Made by a program: the position numbers and the translations under genes | The notes under the pieces: generated by a model | Databases searched by the model: none | Told to the model about the DNA's origin: nothing | Seen by the model: only the letters and a program-made list of their open reading frames with translations | Virus record (IMG/VR): IMGVR_UViG_3300046048_000470 | Span: 1 to 57,055 of that record | From: a virus | Direction: 5' to 3' (one strand) | DNA length: 57,055 nucleotides | In this document: positions 824-57,055 of the stretch, in pieces | Layout of the letters: the number at the start of each line of letters is the position of its first letter | Numbering within the stretch: position 1 is the stretch's first letter

Positions 824-2107
824 ATGAGCAACACACCGGACACCAGCAAACTCACCGAAGCCAGCATCGACCTACTCCGCAAAATCGTCATCAACTCCAA
901 GAACAACGGCGGCGACTTCGGATTCTTCGACGAACTCGACTTCGACACCGACCAGGCTGCAGCGGCAGCCAAGGGCAACCTGGCCGACCTCATCAAAAAG
1001 GGATTCGTCCAGTCATGGGAGGGACATCTTGAGCCAGTCGAATTCCACTTCTCGGATTGGTACGACTGGGCCGAGGGCACCGAAGCCAGCATCGACCTAC
1101 TCCGCGACGTCTACGCCGACCGTAAGCCCGGCTGGGTCGATGCTGAGAAGCACATGATCGCCCACATCGAATTCACCGAGCGCCGCCTAGGCGGCGCCCT
1201 CGCACGCAACGAGTCAGGGCATCCAGAGGCAGCCGACCTTGCCGCTGCACGCGGGACCCTGGCCGATCACCAGGCCGGCATCGTTCCACCTATGGGATGG
1301 TCGGTCGAGTCGACCGAAACGAACGCCCTGGTGGTCACCATCGACGGTTTCGGTGTCTACGCGGTTCGGACCGTCGAGCGGGTCGACGCTCTCTCTAACC
1401 GCCCCAGGTTCAGCATCTTCGCCGATGTCCTCGAAGCGGTCGCGGCCGACGCCTGCGAGCAGCCGTATCCGCAGCTCCCGACCGTCGCCCTGGTCGCCAT
1501 GGCAGGCGATTTCCTCGACGGAGCCGACGACCTCGAACGGTCGGCCGCCAGCAAGGGTCCTGCAGGGAGGGGGCCGGCGATGACGTCAACGGTGCAAACA
1601 ATCGGACAGCGAATCAAGGAAGAGAGGCTGAAGGCTGGGCTAACCCAGCGGGCGCTGGCTGTCAAGGTCGAAGTTGGAGTGCCACACATCTCAAAAATTG
1701 AGGCAGGTCGAGAGAGTCCGAGTGACGAACTACTGGAGCGCATGGCGGAGGCCTTCGGCGTCGACGCTGGCGAGCTAATGCTTGTAGCTCGCCGTATTCC
1801 GGATGCGGTACTGGACAAGCTTGCTGCCGACCCGGTCGACGCTCTTGAGTTCCTGCAAGAGAGTTGTCAAAGACCACGAGAGGAATACGGGCAATCCCGT
1901 CGAGTTCCCAGTGGTGCCGAGCCAGCCGAGGAGATCCCCACCAGCGCAGCGGCCGACGCACGGATCGAGCTGGCCGCCCTCCGTCAGACCCTCATCCATC
2001 TCAAAGCACAGCAGGAGCTGATCACCGAGGCGACCAACGGTGCTCTGGCCAAGGTCGAAACCTTGACCCTGCTGCTCTCCGGTCCCCAACTCAGCTTGTT
2101 CGACTGA
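824..2107 (+). CDS. Helix-turn-helix transcription regulator, candidate repressor (427 aa, mosaic)
   Basis: This is the only large rightward gene. Residues about 259-318 form a clear Xre/cI-type helix-turn-helix (IGQRIKEERLKAGLTQRALA... ISKIEAGRESPSDELLERMAEAFGV). The N-terminal 250 residues are not a recognised effector domain and look assembled from parts: residues 10-19 and 85-94 are encoded by an exact 28-bp repeat (853-880, 1078-1105). An in-frame ATG at 1580 with a GGGAGG site 9 bases upstream could give a 175-aa helix-turn-helix product. It is divergent from 431-694, has its own promoter, and ends at a perfect terminator hairpin. I infer a repressor of the leftward leaderless promoters; no protease-type cleavage domain is visible. 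Confidence 0.8.
   Translation: MSNTPDTSKLTEASIDLLRKIVINSKNNGGDFGFFDELDFDTDQAAAAAKGNLADLIKKGFVQSWEGHLEPVEFHFSDWYDWAEGTEASIDLLRDVYADRKPGWVDAEKHMIAHIEFTERRLGGALARNESGHPEAADLAAARGTLADHQAGIVPPMGWSVESTETNALVVTIDGFGVYAVRTVERVDALSNRPRFSIFADVLEAVAADACEQPYPQLPTVALVAMAGDFLDGADDLERSAASKGPAGRGPAMTSTVQTIGQRIKEERLKAGLTQRALAVKVEVGVPHISKIEAGRESPSDELLERMAEAFGVDAGELMLVARRIPDAVLDKLAADPVDALEFLQESCQRPREEYGQSRRVPSGAEPAEEIPTSAAADARIELAALRQTLIHLKAQQELITEATNGALAKVETLTLLLSGPQLSLFD
853..1105 (+). repeat. 28-bp exact direct repeat inside the regulator gene
   Basis: The 28 bases at 853-880 recur at 1078-1105, 225 bp (75 codons) apart in the same frame, encoding TEASIDLLR twice. Surrounding sequence is not similar, so this is a local duplication or recombination scar rather than a long tandem repeat. 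Confidence 0.85.
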
Positions 2108-15924: not shown

Positions 15925-16023
15925 CCCCGGTAGAGCCAAATCACTACCCAACAGGCCGAGCCTCTGACCAGGAGTTATTTAACATCCCCCACGCGCGGGT
16001 AACCGACTCCCGTCGACCTCGAC

Positions 16024-16047
16024 CGTCTACCCCGCGAGGGGTAGACG
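16024..16047. terminator. Hairpin (10-bp perfect stem)
   Basis: CGTCTACCCC and GGGGTAGACG around a GCGA tetraloop. It resembles the 18-bp C/G-rich intergenic elements in its CTACCCC/GGGGTAG core. It lies 4 bases from the next hairpin in the gene-free region. Confidence 0.5.
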
Positions 16048-16051
16048 CGGA

Positions 16052-16090
16052 GAAGGCCAGCGAGGCGCCGCCGCACCCTCACTGGCCTTC
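16052..16090 (-). terminator. Hairpin downstream of 16165-16776 (13-bp stem)
   Basis: Arms 16052-16064 and 16078-16090, loop 13 bases. The one plus-strand C-A mismatch is G-U in minus-strand RNA. Probable terminator of the long ATGA-coupled operon that ends at 16165. No U-tract. Confidence 0.6.
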
Positions 16091-16164
16091 AGCCTTGTTT
16101 CCCAACAAACCAGATGCCCCGTATCCGCAGCTAACGAGAAGGGGGCCGACCGGCAACAGGGATA

Positions 16165-16776
16165 CTACTCGCTCCGGTCGACCTCGATCCAAGCGGCGAC
16201 CGTGGCAGCTTCCCAAACCGTTGTCGTGTGGACCTTCCCGACCGGTACCGGAGCACGGTGCGGGGCCTGCGACAAGCGGCGACGTAGTTCGTTTTTCGTG
16301 ATCGCCATCAATTCGGCGACTTCGCCGGAATCGAGCGGGTCGACGATCACCTCGACTCCCAACTGTTCAGCGAGATAGTGAACGGCTTCGCGGGCCCCGG
16401 TACCGGTCGGGGCGAACGCTGCAGCCACAGCGAAATCTGAGCCGGCGCACATGCGTGCGAGTGCTGTCGACACCTCGGCGTCTGTCTCGGCCAGGTACCG
16501 CTCATACAGGTCGGTTGATCTGGCGATGCAGGTGGTTCGTGCCAGTTCGGCGGTCCATTTCGAGAAGCGGATCAGGTCAGGGGCCGAGATCTCGGTGGCG
16601 TACCGTTCGAGCGCGGCGAACCATTCGCTGTATGAGCCGACCTGGTAGACAGCGTTGCCGCAGTGCGGGCAGACGCACTGGCCGATCTCCTGGGCTGTTT
16701 GGGTTGCTGGTCCGGACCAAGAGCAGCGGGTCCCGTAGGTCCAGCGTTCGGCTGGGTCTGGTTTGCGTGTGATCAC
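16165..16776 (-). CDS. Hypothetical protein with N-terminal zinc ribbon (203 aa)
   Basis: A GTG start at 16776 overlaps the previous gene's TGA, with AGGA about 9 bases upstream. Near the N-terminus C17 lies before a CVCPHCG knuckle (CxxC), a half-site zinc ribbon. The middle is helical (EWFAALERYATEISAPDLIRF... YERYLAETDAEVSTALARMC). The C-terminus (SGEVAELMAITKNELRRRLSQAP... VWEAATVAAWIEVDRSE) looks like an excisionase-type winged-helix DNA-binding segment. Possibly a DNA-binding regulator; not assigned to a family. Confidence 0.65.
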   Translation of the reverse strand: MITRKPDPAERWTYGTRCSWSGPATQTAQEIGQCVCPHCGNAVYQVGSYSEWFAALERYATEISAPDLIRFSKWTAELARTTCIARSTDLYERYLAETDAEVSTALARMCAGSDFAVAAAFAPTGTGAREAVHYLAEQLGVEVIVDPLDSGEVAELMAITKNELRRRLSQAPHRAPVPVGKVHTTTVWEAATVAAWIEVDRSE

Positions 16777-17389: not shown

Positions 17390-17766
17390 GGCAGCTTGGC
17401 CGTGTCGAAGACCGATACCGGTTCGGGCCAGTTGTGGCTGCCGTCGTGTCCTGCCGGCAGGTTGCAGTTGATCCCGGCCGACTCCCAGCCGCAACCGGCG
17501 CGGCCGTAGGGGAAGATCGAGGATGCCGTAGTTGGGCCGAGCACGGACACAAGGGGAGTGCCGGCCGTAGCCGATGCCCATGCCGCGAACTCGGCTGCTG
17601 TGTCAGCCAGGGCCGCGGCTACGGCCTCGTCGAGGACCAGGCCGGTCTCGTCGGCCAGATCCGCGAGGACTTCGGCCCTGTCGTCTTCCTCCCACCGGCA
17701 GAGGAACCAGCTCAGCAGGATGGTGTCAACTCGGCTGAAACCGATCGTGTGGCCTCGCGTAGTCAT
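17386..17766 (-). CDS. Hypothetical protein with CxH-type C-terminus (126 aa)
   Basis: An N-terminal helical region (TIGFSRVDTILLSWFLCRWEEDDRAEVLADLADETG) is followed by GCGWESAGINCNLPAGHDGSHNW, a two-Cys/two-His motif (C-x8-C-x5-H-x3-H) typical of a small zinc-stabilised actinophage domain. Overlaps both neighbours by 4 bases. Function unknown. Confidence 0.65.
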   Translation of the reverse strand: MTTRGHTIGFSRVDTILLSWFLCRWEEDDRAEVLADLADETGLVLDEAVAAALADTAAEFAAWASATAGTPLVSVLGPTTASSIFPYGRAGCGWESAGINCNLPAGHDGSHNWPEPVSVFDTAKLP

Positions 17767-18482
17767 CTGCTGGTGCCTGGTTGTAGGGCCTGTTCGGCTT
17801 CTTCTTTGAGCCGCGTCTGTTCTTTGATCCATGGCTCGAAGAGTCGATCTCGCCAGTAGCCGGCAGCTTCCCGCCAGTCGTCCGCCTCCAGGTCCCAGTT
17901 CCCACCTCCAGCGTTCGCTATGAGCGCCCATGCTGTCTCAATCACGTTGGAGGCGTCGCCCCAGGTGTAGTCATCGCCGGGGAGCGGGGCGCCGTCGGCA
18001 TCATCGATCACGGAATCGGCGACCATCAGGGTGTAGCCGGTCGAACTTGCGGAGTCTTTGTGCCAGGACAGTGGACTGTCCGGGTAGGTCGGTTCGCCAG
18101 GAACCTGGCCGGTCGACGGGTGATCGCCTCGTAGTTCTTCGACGTCGTCGACGTTCCATGAGCCTTCGACGGCCGGACCGTTGTTGTTGAACACCTTCGG
18201 GTTCCGTCGGTTCTGCCAGCATTTGACTCCGGTGGCTTCGCTACGGTCGATCCACTCGTCTGGGTCGTCGGTGAGCGGGGTCAGGTTCTCGTAGTTCAGG
18301 AGCCGGTTCAGGGCCTCGATCGTCAACGACATCGACCCGCCGCTGTGCTGGTAGCCGGCGGTGATCGCCTCGATCGCCTGGACGATCGAGTTGTGTATCG
18401 CCTCGTCGGCCTCGTCGTGGTCTGGGTTGCGTCGAGCTAGAAGGTCTAGCTCTCGGGCAGCGTGAGCTGCTCGGTTGGTCAT
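17763..18482 (-). CDS. Chimeric early protein carrying a tail-tube-like segment (239 aa)
   Basis: Three modules. Residues 1-50: small helical part. Residues 51-110: a module recurrent in actinophages (LTPLTDDPDEWIDRS... WQNRRNPKVF), starting with an in-frame Met. Residues 123-156: 24 of 31 residues identical to residues 68-98 of the tail tube protein at 52914-53384 (TGQV-GE-TYPD--LSW-KDSASST-Y-LMV). The C-terminus (ETAWALIANAGGGNWDLEADDWREAAGYWRDR) is the usual end of the recurrent module, so the tail segment looks inserted into it. Coupled by ATGA to its neighbours. Function unknown. Confidence 0.75.
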   Translation of the reverse strand: MTNRAAHAARELDLLARRNPDHDEADEAIHNSIVQAIEAITAGYQHSGGSMSLTIEALNRLLNYENLTPLTDDPDEWIDRSEATGVKCWQNRRNPKVFNNNGPAVEGSWNVDDVEELRGDHPSTGQVPGEPTYPDSPLSWHKDSASSTGYTLMVADSVIDDADGAPLPGDDYTWGDASNVIETAWALIANAGGGNWDLEADDWREAAGYWRDRLFEPWIKEQTRLKEEAEQALQPGTSR

Positions 18483-26877: not shown

Positions 26878-27215
26878 CCTTCGTCGGGAGACACCGCTCG
26901 GGCCGGGATAGCTGGCCCTCTGTCATTCTCCGGCGTCAGCGCTGCTATCAGCGCATCGGTGTTGGTCAGCGCCGCCGCTGCCAGAGCGACACCCATCGGG
27001 CCGTAGGCGTCGCCCAGGCCTTCCAGCGAGCCGGTCAGATGAGCGCTTGTCACTGCGTCCATCTTGGACCGTGCGGCCAGGTCATCGTCGAGGACCTGGC
27101 CGATAGCTTCGACGACGGCAGTGACCTGGCCGCCCATCTCAGACAGAGCGGACCGCAAATGGAGAAGATCGGCCAGGGCGGCCGTGATCTGAGTGTGAAC
27201 CGATGCGGAGATCAT
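26874..27215 (-). CDS. Hypothetical helical protein (113 aa)
   Basis: Predicted four-helix protein (ITAALADLLHLRSALSEMGGQVTAVVEAIGQVLDD... VALAAAALTNTDALIAAL) resembling the N-terminal helices of the two beta-sandwich proteins. Coupled by ATGA to the WhiB-fusion gene. Unknown function. Confidence 0.6.
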   Translation of the reverse strand: MISASVHTQITAALADLLHLRSALSEMGGQVTAVVEAIGQVLDDDLAARSKMDAVTSAHLTGSLEGLGDAYGPMGVALAAAALTNTDALIAALTPENDRGPAIPARAVSPDEG

Positions 27216-28657
27216 GACGACGTCGCAGCGCCAGACTTCGTCGGTGTGATCTTCGTGGCCTCGATCCCAGCCGAACCCAGATGCTTGACCAGGGCCTTCT
27301 GCAAGGCCTCATGGATCGTGTTGCCCCAGTCGAGATGCTCCCGACCGAGAGTGAACGTCAACGACCACGACCCAGTCGTTGCCAAGTCGCGTGCGACGGC
27401 TTCTTCGGTGGCATCGTCGAGGGTCTGCCCTTTCTTCATCGCCCTGCAGATGTCCTGCGTCTGGTTGGTGGTCAAACCTTCCGCTTCGGCCCGATCGAGG
27501 ACAGCCAAACGGTCGCCGGTCTCAGGCAAATCCGCGGCGTATCGGTAGTGCGACCATGACAACGTCGGCCGGACACCATCAGCCCGCTCCGCGAGCGGGA
27601 TCCGAGCGCAGACACCCATGTAGTTCGACAGGGTCTTTGGATCCTGCACCAGGGCCTGATCGACGAACTGCCAGAACCGGTCGCCGTAGTGCTTCTCCGC
27701 CCAGTTGCCCCAGTCGCCAAGCCAGAACCGATCCGACGAATTGACCCGCTGCGCGTAGACGCCGATCCGGGCGACGGTCTCCGCGTCCGGCTTCAAGCCT
27801 TCGAGGTTGAGCCGGCGATGCTCGAAGATCTCGCCGGACGGGTCGACCGGTTCCGTGCTCTCCCATGCCCGATGAACGGCCGCCAGCTCCTCGTCGGTCA
27901 GGGTCTCCGCTGACTCTTCGCCCTCATCGGCTGATTCCGCCGGGCCGTCGCCGCCGCAGTACTCACAAGTGGGGCCATCGGCGGTCTCCGTCTGCCAGGC
28001 GTCACCGCAGCCAGGGCAATCGGCTGAGTCGGCCAGGTCACCGTCGATGTCGTCGTTCCCGTCGTCGCTGACCGGAGCTATCTCTGTCACTGTTCCCATA
28101 TCGAAGAGCCTTTCGTGTGTGGTCGTAAGCTCATCGCCCACGCTACCCCCCGGGGGGTCGGACTTGGATCTTCCACGCCGACCGTGGTCCTGTTTCTCGG
28201 CCTTGCAAGCCAAGCAACGACAACCCCGGTTGTAGGTCGACACCTTCCCGCATGTCGCGTCCGGTCCGTTCCAATCGACAGGGTGTCGGCCTTGAGGAAC
28301 CGTCGAACCGCAACGCCAGCAATCCCGCTGCGGTTCGATCGGGGCCGGCCGAGGGTCGACACCGGTCCACCGCCGGACCTCGGCCAGTTCACGCTCAACG
28401 ATCCGATCCCACACCGCCGCGGGGACAGCCGCACGAACAGCAGACAGCCACTGCCGTCGAGCGCCGCCAGAACCGCCAAATATGCCATCCGGTATTCGGG
28501 CCTCGACCGCTTCGTCCAAACAGACCGCAGCGACCTCGCACCTCGCACAAACCGTTTTCGCTGCCTTGCCCTGATTGTCTGGGGCGCCGGCCTCCGGGAA
28601 CCACAGATCCGTGTCCTCACCGCGACACAGCGCGTCTATGTCCCAGCGGTCGGCCAT
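27212..28657 (-). CDS. WhiB domain fused to zinc ribbons and a ParB-like domain (481 aa)
   Basis: Residues 1-75: WhiB (C11, C37-x2-C40-x5-C46, GIFGG 58-62 in place of GVWGG). Residues about 113-155: zinc module (CWRCG... C... GCRCLACK), typical of actinophage WhiB tails. An in-frame Met at 187 (28099) with GAAAGG upstream could start the rest alone. Residues about 200-225: CPGCG...CEYCGGDG ribbon. C-terminal 230 residues: a ParB/KorB-like helical DNA-binding region (WLGDWGNWAEKHYGDRFWQFV... LSNYMGV... LSWSHYRYAADLP... AEAEGLTTNQTQDICR). Probably redox-responsive DNA-binding. The ribbon is encoded within a 95-bp exact repeat shared with 30523-31293. Confidence 0.8.
   Translation of the reverse strand: MADRWDIDALCRGEDTDLWFPEAGAPDNQGKAAKTVCARCEVAAVCLDEAVEARIPDGIFGGSGGARRQWLSAVRAAVPAAVWDRIVERELAEVRRWTGVDPRPAPIEPQRDCWRCGSTVPQGRHPVDWNGPDATCGKVSTYNRGCRCLACKAEKQDHGRRGRSKSDPPGGSVGDELTTTHERLFDMGTVTEIAPVSDDGNDDIDGDLADSADCPGCGDAWQTETADGPTCEYCGGDGPAESADEGEESAETLTDEELAAVHRAWESTEPVDPSGEIFEHRRLNLEGLKPDAETVARIGVYAQRVNSSDRFWLGDWGNWAEKHYGDRFWQFVDQALVQDPKTLSNYMGVCARIPLAERADGVRPTLSWSHYRYAADLPETGDRLAVLDRAEAEGLTTNQTQDICRAMKKGQTLDDATEEAVARDLATTGSWSLTFTLGREHLDWGNTIHEALQKALVKHLGSAGIEATKITPTKSGAATSS
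27940..28034. repeat. 95-bp exact direct repeat, copy 1
   Basis: Identical to 30642-30736. It encodes ADSADCPGCGDAWQTETADG and the following CEYCGGDGP zinc ribbon in the same frame in two different proteins. Flanking sequence encoding the AETLTDEELAAxHRA segment is also similar but diverged, so the exact identity suggests recent gene conversion or duplication. Confidence 0.9.
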
Positions 28658-28693
28658 CCTGCGCCCCAGTGTGGGGCACAGAACAGCCGACAA

Positions 28694-30422: not shown

Positions 30423-30526
30423 CAGCGCCCGACCCCGAAAAATATAATAAGCAGGGCAGTGACGGCCACGACCACGGTCATGAAGACGACAAGAAAGACG
30501 ATCGGCTCGGCAACTTTGGGTTTCAT
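30422..30526 (-). CDS. Tiny membrane protein (34 aa)
   Basis: MKPKVAEPIVFLVVFMTVVV continues to AVTALLIIFFGVGR: one transmembrane helix. Its TGA overlaps the ATG of the HNH gene (TGATG) and its start overlaps the previous stop (ATGA). Unknown function. Confidence 0.7.
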   Translation of the reverse strand: MKPKVAEPIVFLVVFMTVVVAVTALLIIFFGVGR

Positions 30527-31313: not shown

Positions 31314-31460
31314 TCACTTGCGGAGCCGGCCCCACAACGGGTACCGGCCTTCCATGTCCGCCAGATACGCAACCCGGTCAGGGTGACCCCGATACCGGAA
31401 CTGCCACTGCCGGACCTCGCCAATCGCCCACGCCACAACACCGATCCATAGAAGTGTCAT
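31314..31460 (-). CDS. Small protein with N-terminal hydrophobic helix (48 aa)
   Basis: MTLLWIGVVAWAIGEVRQWQ begins with a short membrane helix, followed by a basic, aromatic cytoplasmic part (RYRGHPDRVAYLADMEGRY). ATGA overlap with 31457-32227. Not recognised. Confidence 0.65.
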   Translation of the reverse strand: MTLLWIGVVAWAIGEVRQWQFRYRGHPDRVAYLADMEGRYPLWGRLRK

Positions 31461-32227
31461 GACGCCTCCGGACCGGCAGGGCCGGCCTTCCAGGCGTTGA
31501 ACTCATCACAGCGGCACAGAGGGCACGGGTAGACGCCTGAGCCGTCGCGGGCCGAGACCCAACCAGATTGGCAACGACCAGACTTGCAAGCCTTCAAGCC
31601 ACCAGGGCCAGGTTCCGGCAGACCTTCGAGTGCCTTACGGATCGCCGCCTCTCGGATCTGCCGCGCCCGCCAATTCGTGCAGCCCTCACCGCAACCCCGA
31701 GCGCCCTCGAAAGCACGCTGACGATGATCGTGTTTCGGGCGACCCAACGGCCTACCCGTATCCGGGTCGAGCACCGGGTCGACAGCTGCCAGCGACGTCG
31801 ACCGGTCATGCCGATTGATCGCCAGGCCACCTTCGAGCATCGCCCTCGCCCCAGGCGACACCTTGCCCAACTCCACCAGCACCGTGCTGTAGGCCTCCAG
31901 GAACTCACGCCGGGGCCGAGCAAACGACGTCGGCCGAACGCCACGCGGTTCCTCCGGCGCCGGCGACGGGCCGGAGCCGACAGCACGAACGTGGTCGTTC
32001 AGCGCCGCCGCGGTCGGAAACGCCCGAGGATTCTTGACCGACTTCGCCCACGACTCGAAGACGTCATCGACAATCTCGATCGGCATCCAATCGAGCGACA
32101 TCGTGCGGTTGATCAACCGGGCCGTTGTCTCGATGTCGTCATCGGTAGCGAACAGCCCAATCGATGGCTTGATATCCCGCAGCCAGTCACGAATCACCAG
32201 CCGCCGCGCTTCGAGCTTGTCACTCAT
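31457..32227 (-). CDS. Putative helicase-loader or replication accessory protein (256 aa)
   Basis: Directly follows and overlaps the winged-helix initiator gene by ATGA, the place of lambda P or DnaI-type loaders. Residues 1-90 are helical (RDWLRDIKPSIGLFATDDDIETTARLINRT... VFESWAKSVKNPRAFPTAAALNDHV). The C-terminal 50 residues carry CKSGRCQSGWVSARDGSGVYPCPLC, a four-Cys zinc ribbon seen in phage replication accessory proteins. No Walker motif, so it is not an AAA+ loader; it would act by binding host DnaB-type helicase. Inference from position. Confidence 0.6.
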   Translation of the reverse strand: MSDKLEARRLVIRDWLRDIKPSIGLFATDDDIETTARLINRTMSLDWMPIEIVDDVFESWAKSVKNPRAFPTAAALNDHVRAVGSGPSPAPEEPRGVRPTSFARPRREFLEAYSTVLVELGKVSPGARAMLEGGLAINRHDRSTSLAAVDPVLDPDTGRPLGRPKHDHRQRAFEGARGCGEGCTNWRARQIREAAIRKALEGLPEPGPGGLKACKSGRCQSGWVSARDGSGVYPCPLCRCDEFNAWKAGPAGPEAS

Positions 32228-33312
32228 CCCGCCTGCCCTTCCACCATCGCCTCGGCCGCCTCACGCGAGTGGCCTTCCTCCATCAGAAACAGAATCGCGT
32301 GCTCATGCCCCGCGACCCGCCGGCGCTCGGCCTCTTCCGCCTCCGCCCGATGCTTCGCCTCACGCCGAGCCCGGATCTCCGCAACCGCGGGATCTACCGG
32401 GGCCGCCGCACGGGCCTTCTTCGGGCCAGGCCACCAACCAGCGACCATGCTCGGACTGATCGGCCCCGCGTACTCGTCATGCTTCGAGTTGATGAACGTC
32501 GACGCGTGAGGCAACGGAGCTTCCTCGATCGGGAGCGAGTGATGCGTCGACCACCGGCGGCGAAGCTCGGCCATGCGGTCACGCCGCTCGGTGAGGATGG
32601 CGACGGTCAGGTGCTCCCGCTGCAGAGCTTTCTTCCACGCTCGCAGCGCGGTCTTCCGCGGTCCCTTGCGGACATCGTTCGGGTAGTGCTCCCACCAGTC
32701 AGCGAACAAGGCCTCAGCGCCGCGGTCTTCGGCGTCGGTTTGGTGACGTCGTTCGGCAGCTGACTCGATCCCGCCGTCTGGTGAGTCGACGACGAACAGC
32801 GTCGGATCGGCGCCCCCCGCTTGCGGGGGGTTGGGGGGTTCATTTCCTTCTTCTCTAGTTCTTCTACTTCTTAAGGGCTGAGTTTCGCCTGGTGACAGGG
32901 CCTGAGCCGTCGCGATATCGCGGCGACCCGTCGCGATATCCCCGACCTGCGTTGGCGATTTCGCGACGGCTCCGGACCCTGCTCGGCGATTTCGCGACGG
33001 CCGTTCTGGAGGGTCCGGGAGCTTGTCATGGTTGATCTCCAGGGTGACGATGCCGCCCGGCTCGCGGTCGACTATCTCCACCACGCCAGCCTCTACCAGG
33101 CGCTTGACCGCTCGGTAGACGCCGTCTTTGCTCAGCCCGGTCTTATCTGCCAGCTTCTGGTAGGTCAGCCGGCATTCGCCGAACTCGCCGCCGAAGTAAT
33201 CGATGCCGCCAACGAAGTGGATCTGCTGCAGCACGATCGCCCCAACAGGGTTGAAGTGCCGAACCAGTGTCGGCCCCACAGCTATGAACTCTTCCGGGAT
33301 CAGCGCGCTCAT
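32224..33312 (-). CDS. Replication initiator, winged-helix replisome organizer (362 aa)
   Basis: Residues about 40-85 form a winged helix-turn-helix (LTYQKLADKTGLSKDGVYRAVKRLVEAGVVEIV) typical of phage replisome organizers and lambda O-like initiators. A disordered linker (about 95-180) contains the iterons at DNA level. The C-terminal part (ADWWEHYPNDVRKGPRKTALRAWKKAL... AEAEEAERRRVAGHEHAILFLMEEGHSREAAEAMVEG) matches the C-terminal region of phage replication proteins that contact a loader or helicase. Binding of its own linker-encoded iterons is inferred by analogy with lambda. Confidence 0.8.
   Translation of the reverse strand: MSALIPEEFIAVGPTLVRHFNPVGAIVLQQIHFVGGIDYFGGEFGECRLTYQKLADKTGLSKDGVYRAVKRLVEAGVVEIVDREPGGIVTLEINHDKLPDPPERPSRNRRAGSGAVAKSPTQVGDIATGRRDIATAQALSPGETQPLRSRRTREEGNEPPNPPQAGGADPTLFVVDSPDGGIESAAERRHQTDAEDRGAEALFADWWEHYPNDVRKGPRKTALRAWKKALQREHLTVAILTERRDRMAELRRRWSTHHSLPIEEAPLPHASTFINSKHDEYAGPISPSMVAGWWPGPKKARAAAPVDPAVAEIRARREAKHRAEAEEAERRRVAGHEHAILFLMEEGHSREAAEAMVEGQAG
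32811..33000. other. Predicted origin of replication inside the initiator gene
   Basis: Four copies of CCGTCGCGA(A/T)ATC: two direct (32907-32919, 32928-32940) and two inverted (32957-32969, 32988-33000). The inverted pair are 31 bp apart and so translated in different frames, showing the DNA rather than the protein is conserved. Beside them is a pyrimidine- and AT-rich block (32841-32874) unlike the surrounding GC-rich DNA, next to a 7-bp C/G hairpin (32813-32830) and a TTGGGGGGTT run. Iterons plus a low-stability strand-biased block within the initiator gene is the lambda ori plan. Confidence 0.7.
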
Positions 33313-33548
33313 CGCGTCAGCCAGGCGTCGACCTCGGCCTGCCACCTGCGGATAGTGGCAGGCTTGACGCCGAACCATTCCGCTGCCTCTTCCGCCGTGT
33401 GCGGAGCGTCGACGTACTGGCCGTCGACCACCTTCTGCCCGGCCGAGCCGCAGGCAATCAGCAGTGCTTTGGCTTGTGGCGAAACGCCCGGGTCGAACAG
33501 AATCAACGTCGGGTCGACCGTCGCCCCCCGGGGGGTTGATCGTTGCAT
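33309..33548 (-). CDS. Small helix-turn-helix protein (79 aa)
   Basis: C-terminal AEEAAEWFGVKPATIRRWQAEVDAWL is a MerR/excisionase- or terminase-small-like helix-turn-helix. The start at 33548 has GAAAGG 7 bases upstream; the site lies in one arm of an 8-bp inverted repeat (33550-33557 / 33570-33577), so translation may be blocked by the hairpin. ATGA overlap with the initiator gene suggests it sets initiator translation too. A regulator of replication onset is a reasonable inference. Confidence 0.7.
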   Translation of the reverse strand: MQRSTPRGATVDPTLILFDPGVSPQAKALLIACGSAGQKVVDGQYVDAPHTAEEAAEWFGVKPATIRRWQAEVDAWLTR

Positions 33549-33549
33549 T

Positions 33550-33624
33550 TGGTGCCTTTCTTTGTCAGTAGGCACCAGAAACGATCGGTTCGAGCGTTTC
33601 CGCCCGTTAGAATCTCTGGTGCCT
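33550..33624 (-). promoter_or_regulatory. Alternative-pairing leader (three copies of an 8-base arm)
   Basis: In leftward RNA the order is AGGCACCA (33624-33617), TGGTGCCT (33577-33570), AGGCACCA (33557-33550). The middle arm can pair with either outer arm. Pairing with the downstream copy hides the GAAAGG ribosome site of 33309-33548; pairing upstream frees it. This is the layout of an RNA switch. Confidence 0.5.
33585..33613 (+). promoter_or_regulatory. Rightward promoter for a small RNA
   Basis: TCGGTT (33585-33590), a 17-base spacer and TAGAAT (33608-33613), a good TANNNT box, on the plus strand. It points into a 100-bp unit with two perfect hairpins and a terminal T-run, with no rightward gene downstream. 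Confidence 0.5.
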
Positions 33625-33713
33625 GAGTTATGTTTCGTGGAGGCCTGGAAGCCTCCACAAGTTCGCAGTGTAGGCCCGGTCTGGTTTCTCCAGACCGGGC
33701 CTCACTCGTTTTT
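33618..33713 (+). ncRNA. Candidate plus-strand small regulatory RNA (about 95 nt)
   Basis: From the predicted start just after the TAGAAT box the RNA would contain GGUGCCUGAGUUAUG, a perfect 8-bp hairpin (33637-33644 / 33651-33658), then a perfect 13-bp stem with a UUUCU loop (33672-33684 / 33690-33702) and, after 6 bases, UUUUU (33709-33713). Promoter, hairpins and U-run are consistent only on the plus strand, against all neighbouring genes. Its 5' end can pair with the ribosome site of 33309-33548. No coding sequence of note. Expression is untested. Confidence 0.55.
33672..33713 (+). terminator. Intrinsic terminator of the plus-strand RNA
   Basis: 13-bp perfect GC-rich stem, 5-base loop, then CACTCG and TTTTT. 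It is the only hairpin in the genome that I found followed by a clear T-run, and the run is on the plus strand. Confidence 0.6.
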
Positions 33714-34003
33714 CAGGTGGTGTCGGCCCGCAGCACCGACATCTCTAGGTCAGCGCCGAACGGGGTACGCCCGGTCACCCGGAACCGCATCGACGCCATG
33801 ATCTCGTCAACGTCTTCGCCTCGGGCAGGCATGAAATGCTCGGCCGCGTACTCTTCGAGCCAACGCCGAACCGACCGGTACCCGCCGGCCACAGTGTCCA
33901 TGTGGGGAGATTCGGCGGGCATCCCGATCCACACCTCCCGGTTGATCCGCGAAGTGAACATCGAAGCGCAGTGCTCCCACTCCCTCACCCACTGGACGGT
34001 CAC
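33713..34003 (-). CDS. Hypothetical protein (96 aa)
   Basis: Mixed fold; MTVQWVREWEHCASMFTSRI, then a helical GYRSVRRWLEEYAAEHF and a C-terminal strand pair (RFRVTGRTPFGADLEMSVLRA). Overlaps the gene upstream by ATGA. Its stop is at the T-run of the plus-strand terminator. Unknown. Confidence 0.6.
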   Translation of the reverse strand: MTVQWVREWEHCASMFTSRINREVWIGMPAESPHMDTVAGGYRSVRRWLEEYAAEHFMPARGEDVDEIMASMRFRVTGRTPFGADLEMSVLRADTT

Positions 34004-56910: not shown

Positions 56911-56940
56911 GGTCGCCGCCGCTATCGAGCGGCGACGACC
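56911..56940 (-). terminator. Hairpin at the contig junction (13-bp stem)
   Basis: Arms 56911-56923 and 56928-56940 around ATCG. The one plus-strand C-A mismatch is G-U in minus-strand RNA. It ends the gene at 34-336 (circularly upstream) and precedes the leader of 56607-56879. Confidence 0.65.
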
Positions 56941-57055
56941 AGAACCTACTGGCAACCGGGGTTAACGGCCAACCGACGTTATTTTCTCGGGCCAGGCCTT
57001 GAACCTCAACGCCGCCGAACCACGGTGAGGCGCATCCCACCGGTAAACCGTGATC
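56929..57055. repeat. Terminal direct repeat, right copy
   Basis: Identical to 1-127; see the left copy. Confidence 0.9.

Follow-up and report, generated by a model that had tools for sequence, protein, structure and literature searches.

A predicted antisense RNA opposite the leader of a replication-initiator operon in a tailed phage genome

The locus lies within a leftward operon of the IMG/VR virus record IMGVR_UViG_3300046048_000470 (57,055 nt), and in the following the window means this whole record. It comprises the gap between a 96-aa ORF and a small gene encoding an HTH protein, the latter followed by the gene of a replication initiator. The features of the leftward operon are the following:

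31457-32227, minus strand: 256-aa ORF, overlapping the stop of the initiator gene, in the position of lambda P
32224-33312, minus strand: O-like replication initiator with a winged HTH (PHROG_270, E 1.4e-16)
32904-33001, minus strand: four iterons, CCGTCGCGATATC(C), inside the initiator gene, at 32906, 32927, 32954 and 32985
33309-33548, minus strand: HTH protein of 79 aa with weak family matches, first gene of the operon opposed to the candidate RNA
33713-34003, minus strand: 96-aa ORF lying further upstream in this operon, with a stop TGA (33715-33713) that touches the T-run of the rightward terminator described below

The HTH gene probably starts at ATG 33548, with the SD sequence AGAAAGG seven bases ahead of it, and not at GTG 33575. 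With this start the gap is approximately 164 nt long, which corrects the 137 bp given in an earlier note on this DNA. The initiator has 362 aa and its start overlaps the stop of the HTH gene (ATGA); its match to PHROG_270 agrees with the earlier description of the adjoining operon as one encoding an HTH protein and an initiator. Neither the 256-aa nor the 96-aa ORF had a family match in PHROGs or Pfam, and for the 96-aa ORF none was CII-like.

The iterons are 13-15-mers, some of them with one- to two-base variation, and two are present in each orientation. Outside the cluster the genome has one further copy, at two mismatches. The cluster is a putative origin. The extremes of the detrended GC skew were at 6.9 and 25.6 kb and none was at 33 kb, giving no support for an origin there. 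Within the gap, the only leftward sigma-70-like -10 was TACACT, a 4/6 match, and no clear leftward -10 was found, which suggests that the sense mRNA probably begins upstream and crosses the gap.

The record has a GC content of 64% and an exact 127-bp direct repeat at its two ends (1-127 identical to 56929-57055). The repeat is probably an assembly overlap and the record a closed and complete circular genome of 56,928 bp. The recognizable genes include those of terminase, major and minor head proteins, tape measure, WhiB, Erf, RuvC and helicase, and nearly all genes are leftward. The best matches of the head protein were with phages of Streptomyces, Gordonia, Arthrobacter and Mycobacterium (26-30% identity), which makes an actinobacterial host likely. 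The Pfam search of the genome detected no integrase, serine recombinase, ParA or ParB. One clear rightward gene (824-2107, plus strand) encodes a protein of 427 aa, a candidate immunity repressor, the middle part of which (residues 264-318) is an XRE helix-turn-helix. The minus-strand gene at 17763-18482 likely serves anti-defence, its product containing a Tad3 domain (PF25185, type I Thoeris inhibitor; E 1.4e-28). The protein of 493 aa encoded at 27212-28693 on the minus strand has an N-terminal WhiB domain and a long C-terminal remainder without assignment.

The rightward features of the gap are the following:

33585-33590, plus strand: TCGGTT, proposed earlier as a -35 element, 2/6 match to TTGACA
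33608-33613, plus strand: -10-like hexamer TAGAAT, 5/6 of TATAAT
33619-33713, plus strand: antisense RNA of approximately 93-95 nt, predicted from the -10-like hexamer and the terminator
33637-33658, plus strand: stem-loop 1, perfect stem of 8 bp with loop CUGGAA
33664-33713, plus strand: intrinsic terminator, a 13-bp stem with AGUG/CACU and CG/CG pairs, followed by T5

Both perfect hairpins reported in the earlier note were present, the one of 8 bp at 33637-33658 and the one of 13 bp at 33672-33702, as was the TTTTT at 33709-33713. Six nucleotides separate the T-run from the 13-bp stem, and the AGUG/CACU and CG/CG pairs lengthen this stem until it is flush with TTTTT. With an energy of -35.2 kcal the terminator was the top T-tailed hairpin of the genome on both strands (the next being -26.6 at 16095), and it was stronger than the best hairpin of each of 100 dinucleotide-preserving 57-kb shuffles (mean best -26.1). 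As a positive control, the same scan found the known lambda oop terminator tO at -16.9 kcal. The earlier statement that this was the only hairpin with a T-run applies to perfect gap hairpins with T5, but not to T-tailed hairpins in general, as weaker ones exist, e.g., at 16052-16095. The gap 15951-16165 contains tandem hairpins at 16024-16090, one of 10 bp and one of 14 bp with one mismatch, followed by the rightward T-rich tail TTGTTTCC; this is the second-best terminator-like site of the genome. A perfect 14-bp hairpin without a T-run, possibly a U-less terminator, is present at 2121-2156, 14 nt past the stop of the rightward gene at 824-2107.

TCGGTT and TAGAAT, separated by a 17-nt spacer, were found where they had been described, and the promoter proposed from them was retained in its -10 part. 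Hexamers of the form TANNNT with 5/6 of TATAAT numbered five at three places on both strands, against 23.7 expected from shuffles, and such -10-like sites appear depleted in the genome. TAGAAT is one of the three on the plus strand in 57 kb, and it is suitably placed for the predicted RNA. As a -35 element, TCGGTT was dropped, its similarity to TTGACA being at about chance level, and a simple sigma-70 scan called no promoter at the candidate RNA. Mycobacterial promoters often have no -35 (PMC12288462), and the host here is inferred to be actinobacterial. The only perfect TATAAT of the genome lies in AAAAATATAATAA at 30438-30450, with overlapping -10-like hexamers on both strands, and this site is close to where a leftward gene starts.

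The RNA would start at G33619 or G33621 and end at 33709-33713. It would thus consist of an 18-nt 5' tail (33619-33636), a stem-loop, a spacer and the terminator, and as a whole it folds at -51.8 kcal. On the strength of the terminator and the rare -10, the rightward RNA is probably made. As stated earlier, no credible rightward gene follows: the rightward ORFs are antisense to genes whose GC by codon position is better and whose starts and stops overlap. That the RNA itself codes for a protein from ATG 33630 was rejected, as the frame has no stop ahead of the terminator.

Comparison with Rfam gave no match above threshold for the window, a result that means little because Rfam has no model recognizing even the OOP of lambda. 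The best sub-threshold match on the plus strand was to ctRNA_pGA1 (RF00236), with 20.7 bits against the gathering cut-off of 45; membership in this family was rejected, the alignment resting on the GC-rich terminator and the U tail.

On the opposite strand, the leader of the leftward mRNA contains three mutually complementary arms:

33538-33556, minus strand: arm 3, GGCACCAAATGCAACGATC, overlapping the SD sequence and the start codon, pairing with arm 2 (structure B)
33570-33586, minus strand: arm 2, GATCGTTTCTGGTGCCT, common to structures A and B
33610-33624, minus strand: arm 1, AGGCACCAGAGATT, pairing with arm 2 (structure A)

Structure A, formed by arms 1 and 2 (-30.4 kcal), has a GAAA-capped inner hairpin and leaves the SD sequence and AUG free, while structure B, formed by arms 2 and 3 (-21.4 kcal), covers the SD sequence and encloses the AUG of the HTH gene. 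The energies of A and B were each beyond those of all 1000 shuffles (1000/1000), and their joint minimum was beyond all 2000 (2000/2000). Scanning the genome for A/B-like pairs by raw energy was not informative, the genome being GC-rich, and composition-corrected z-scores were used instead. The start-site fold at 33548 had a z of -6.0, the most anomalous of 67 gene starts (the next being -3.4), while the lowest z among 400 random windows was -3.9. This anomaly holds independently of any RNA from the opposite strand.

The predicted RNA is complementary to positions 33619-33713 of the leftward mRNA, including the outer half of arm 1. When this footprint was blocked in in silico folding, P(B) was 1.00 in 30 of the 30 leader-end combinations. 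Blocks reaching arm 1 (33624 or lower) favoured B, and those ending at 33625 left A. The free leader was 100% A until its 3' end passed 33540 and thereafter a length-dependent mixture of A and B. Its P(A) ranged from 0 to 1 with the chosen ends, A and B being near balance, and a switch would therefore rely on the order of co-transcriptional folding or on tuning. The modelled openness of the SD sequence (AAGG) was 0.26-0.93 in the free and 0.26 in the blocked leader, a factor of approximately one to three and a half, and the bases of the AUG were in the model often unpaired within an internal loop.

The alternative-pairing leader on the opposite strand, like the corrected start codon and the extended terminator stem, was absent from the earlier note, and it offers a concrete mechanism. 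RNA polymerase would start rightward near 33619 and halt at the intrinsic terminator at 33664-33713. In the free leader, arm 1 would pair with the emerging arm 2, leaving the SD sequence and AUG of the HTH gene open. Antisense RNA bound to 33619-33713 would take arm 1, arm 2 would then pair with arm 3, and the SD sequence and AUG would be hidden. This would reduce translation of the HTH gene and, via the ATGA overlap, also that of the initiator. As its level would follow genome copy number, the RNA could sense dosage and in this way slow initiation at the iterons of the initiator gene.

We thus propose, with moderate confidence, that the locus is a cis-antisense countertranscript RNA of approximately 95 nt which restrains the replication-initiator operon by setting translation of the initiator. 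A countertranscript brake is favoured by the refolding logic, which is that of the pT181 and pSK41 leaders, together with the 18-nt tail, the two stem-loops and the intragenic iterons. The terminator, the rare -10, the three-arm leader, the iterons and the gene order are present in the sequence, and from them we infer transcription, pairing in vivo, the translational effect and the role of the RNA. The earlier suggestion of an RNA of about 95 nt acting on the HTH/initiator operon remains the best-supported reading as regards a rightward RNA with its own terminator opposite the operon, and lapses in its -35 part.

The RNA could also exist and act in the manner of lambda OOP or of a convergent promoter like pO, with polymerases colliding near the origin, as has been shown in lambda, or with RNase III cutting the sense mRNA, and without refolding of the leader. 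The geometry of lambda is shared, i.e., a gene, an antisense RNA and an O-like gene with iterons; in lambda, transcription from pR and the binding of O are tuned by the activity of pO (PMC3985674), replication is little affected by the OOP RNA as such (PMC3985674), and OOP works on cII through RNase III (PMC5869508). However, such action would leave hairpin B at the start codon and the competing arm 1 unexplained, and the RNA overlaps the upstream ORF by approximately one base here compared with 52 for OOP and cII. We consider this explanation rather unlikely.

Quite unlikely is also that the gap contains a leftward feature only, the tandem hairpins terminating or attenuating the leftward operon as a U-less structure ('I-shaped' or clustered-hairpin), with the rightward -10 and T-run accidental or the terminator bidirectional. 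The hairpin begins 11 nt past the stop of the 96-aa gene, U-less hairpins at most 50 bp from stops have been proposed as terminators in mycobacteria (PMC12288462), hairpin clusters have been reported across bacteria (PMC8355165), and this phage has U-less hairpins in other gaps (2121-2156, 16024-16090). Folding of the leader is also stronger on the minus strand (-85 kcal) than on the plus strand (-76 kcal). Nevertheless, a leftward terminator would cut the initiator genes off from the promoter that they are likely to have further upstream, no clear leftward promoter being present in the gap, and the flush T5 exists on the rightward side only.

The repeated motifs of the gap allow a reading at the level of DNA, in which TGGTGCC, present three times (33550, 33571, 33617), and GATCGTT, present twice, would be operators bound by the HTH protein or a repressor controlling the TAGAAT promoter, and the RNA folds by-products of symmetric DNA sites. 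TGGTGCC occurs in three copies in 74 bp compared with nine in 57 kb, one of them directly downstream of TAGAAT, and a small HTH gene lies directly next to the sites, as with the plasmid proteins CopG or CopR. The spacing between GATCGTT and TGGTGCC is, however, unequal (5 and 2 nt), which counts against a single protein footprint because an internal loop of RNA tolerates such a difference and a footprint usually does not; furthermore, the sites coincide exactly with the SD sequence and AUG. As a replacement for the RNA this reading is very unlikely, but the two are compatible and both may hold. That the locus is a product of chance, with neither a functional RNA nor a switch, agrees with a rightward promoter without a -35 but is highly improbable, as the terminator and structures A and B were each beyond all shuffles.

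Close relatives for an analysis of covariation were found in none of the phage, plasmid, viral-contig and genome collections searched. Exact-peptide scans of viral contigs with the initiator, Erf, terminase, capsid and tape measure gave no relative, and that with the helicase picked up two distant contigs, with GC contents of 45% and 58%. The terminase aligned with at most 37% identity, comparison with phages and plasmids at the DNA level gave no similar sequence, and the DNA pattern of the hairpins was absent from the viral contigs scanned. Five other phages with a distantly similar initiator (mycobacteriophages Renaud18 and Beakin, Arthrobacter phage Chickaboom, Pseudomonas phage U7 and coliphage cdtI) had no comparable antisense terminator beside the initiator gene in the region upstream of it. 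As no relative was close enough, no covariance model was built.

In plasmids, antisense control of initiator leaders is textbook knowledge. The literature searched, covered in part, included no phage with an antisense RNA directed at the ribosome site of an initiator leader. Tentatively, the phage might carry a copy-number device of plasmid type, in which an antisense RNA refolds the leader of a lambda O-like operon and shuts down its translation, combining the position of lambda oop with the mechanism of pSK41, and which may control an extrachromosomal prophage. Such a prophage in need of copy control is possible but speculative, the genome being closed and having no detected integrase, serine recombinase or ParAB. 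If correct, a phage antisense RNA wired to the ribosome site of an initiator would join plasmid control with lambda OOP and show a way for a virus to gauge its own copy number. The prediction is narrow, involving two arms, one promoter and one start codon.

Among the plasmid systems, RNAI of pSK41 is an RNA of approximately 83 nt with an unstructured 18-nt 5' tail and two stem-loops, transcribed opposite the rep leader (PMC5703833, review); its binding is predicted to bring about a stem that conceals the ribosome binding site, and the origin is central in rep (PMC5703833). The RNA predicted here from the sequence resembles RNAI of pSK41 and pT181 (approximately 83-87 nt) as an intrinsic-terminated RNA opposite the leader of an initiator operon. 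With pSK41 it shares the 18-nt 5' tail, the two stem-loops and the position of the origin, or here origin-like iterons, within the initiator gene. The competing leader stems, of which the antisense RNA favours the blocking one, are also common to pSK41 and pT181, here in silico with P(B) 1.00. In contrast to both, the start that would be blocked here belongs to the HTH gene, the initiator being affected by coupling, and the replicon is a phage with terminase, capsid and tape measure instead of a RepA_N or Rep_trans plasmid. The initiator also differs from that of pSK41, being O-like with a winged HTH and not RepA_N, and a small HTH gene is first in the operon. No sequence similarity to plasmids was found in the plasmid collection.

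The combination of a small HTH gene, here for a putative DNA-binding protein, with a terminated antisense RNA around an initiator is also known from pMV158 (CopG and RNAII) and pIP501 (CopR and RNAIII), although in pMV158 RNAII lies between copG and repB, whereas the RNA predicted here precedes the HTH gene. Noncoding RNAs of early or replication regions in actinophages are represented by those of the cluster A mycobacteriophages (L5/D29 right-end; RedRock-type RNA-based origins). In the parts of the sources available, these are, unlike the present RNA, Pleft transcripts or parABS-linked, and none is described as an initiator-leader countertranscript.

Like lambda OOP, the predicted RNA is antisense, ends at an intrinsic terminator and has a small early gene on one side and an O-like gene on the other; its transcription leads away from the origin, and the four iterons have the same relative place inside the initiator gene as in lambda O. 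However, the iterons of lambda are all direct while those here are two per orientation. The 52-base overlap of the cII type is also missing, the T-run merely touching the upstream stop at 33713, and the upstream 96-aa ORF has no CII-like match. Unlike OOP, the RNA faces a leader with alternative pairings. By the tests made, the locus belongs to neither the OOP nor the pSK41 class: as proposed it works like the plasmid countertranscripts, and it sits like lambda OOP.
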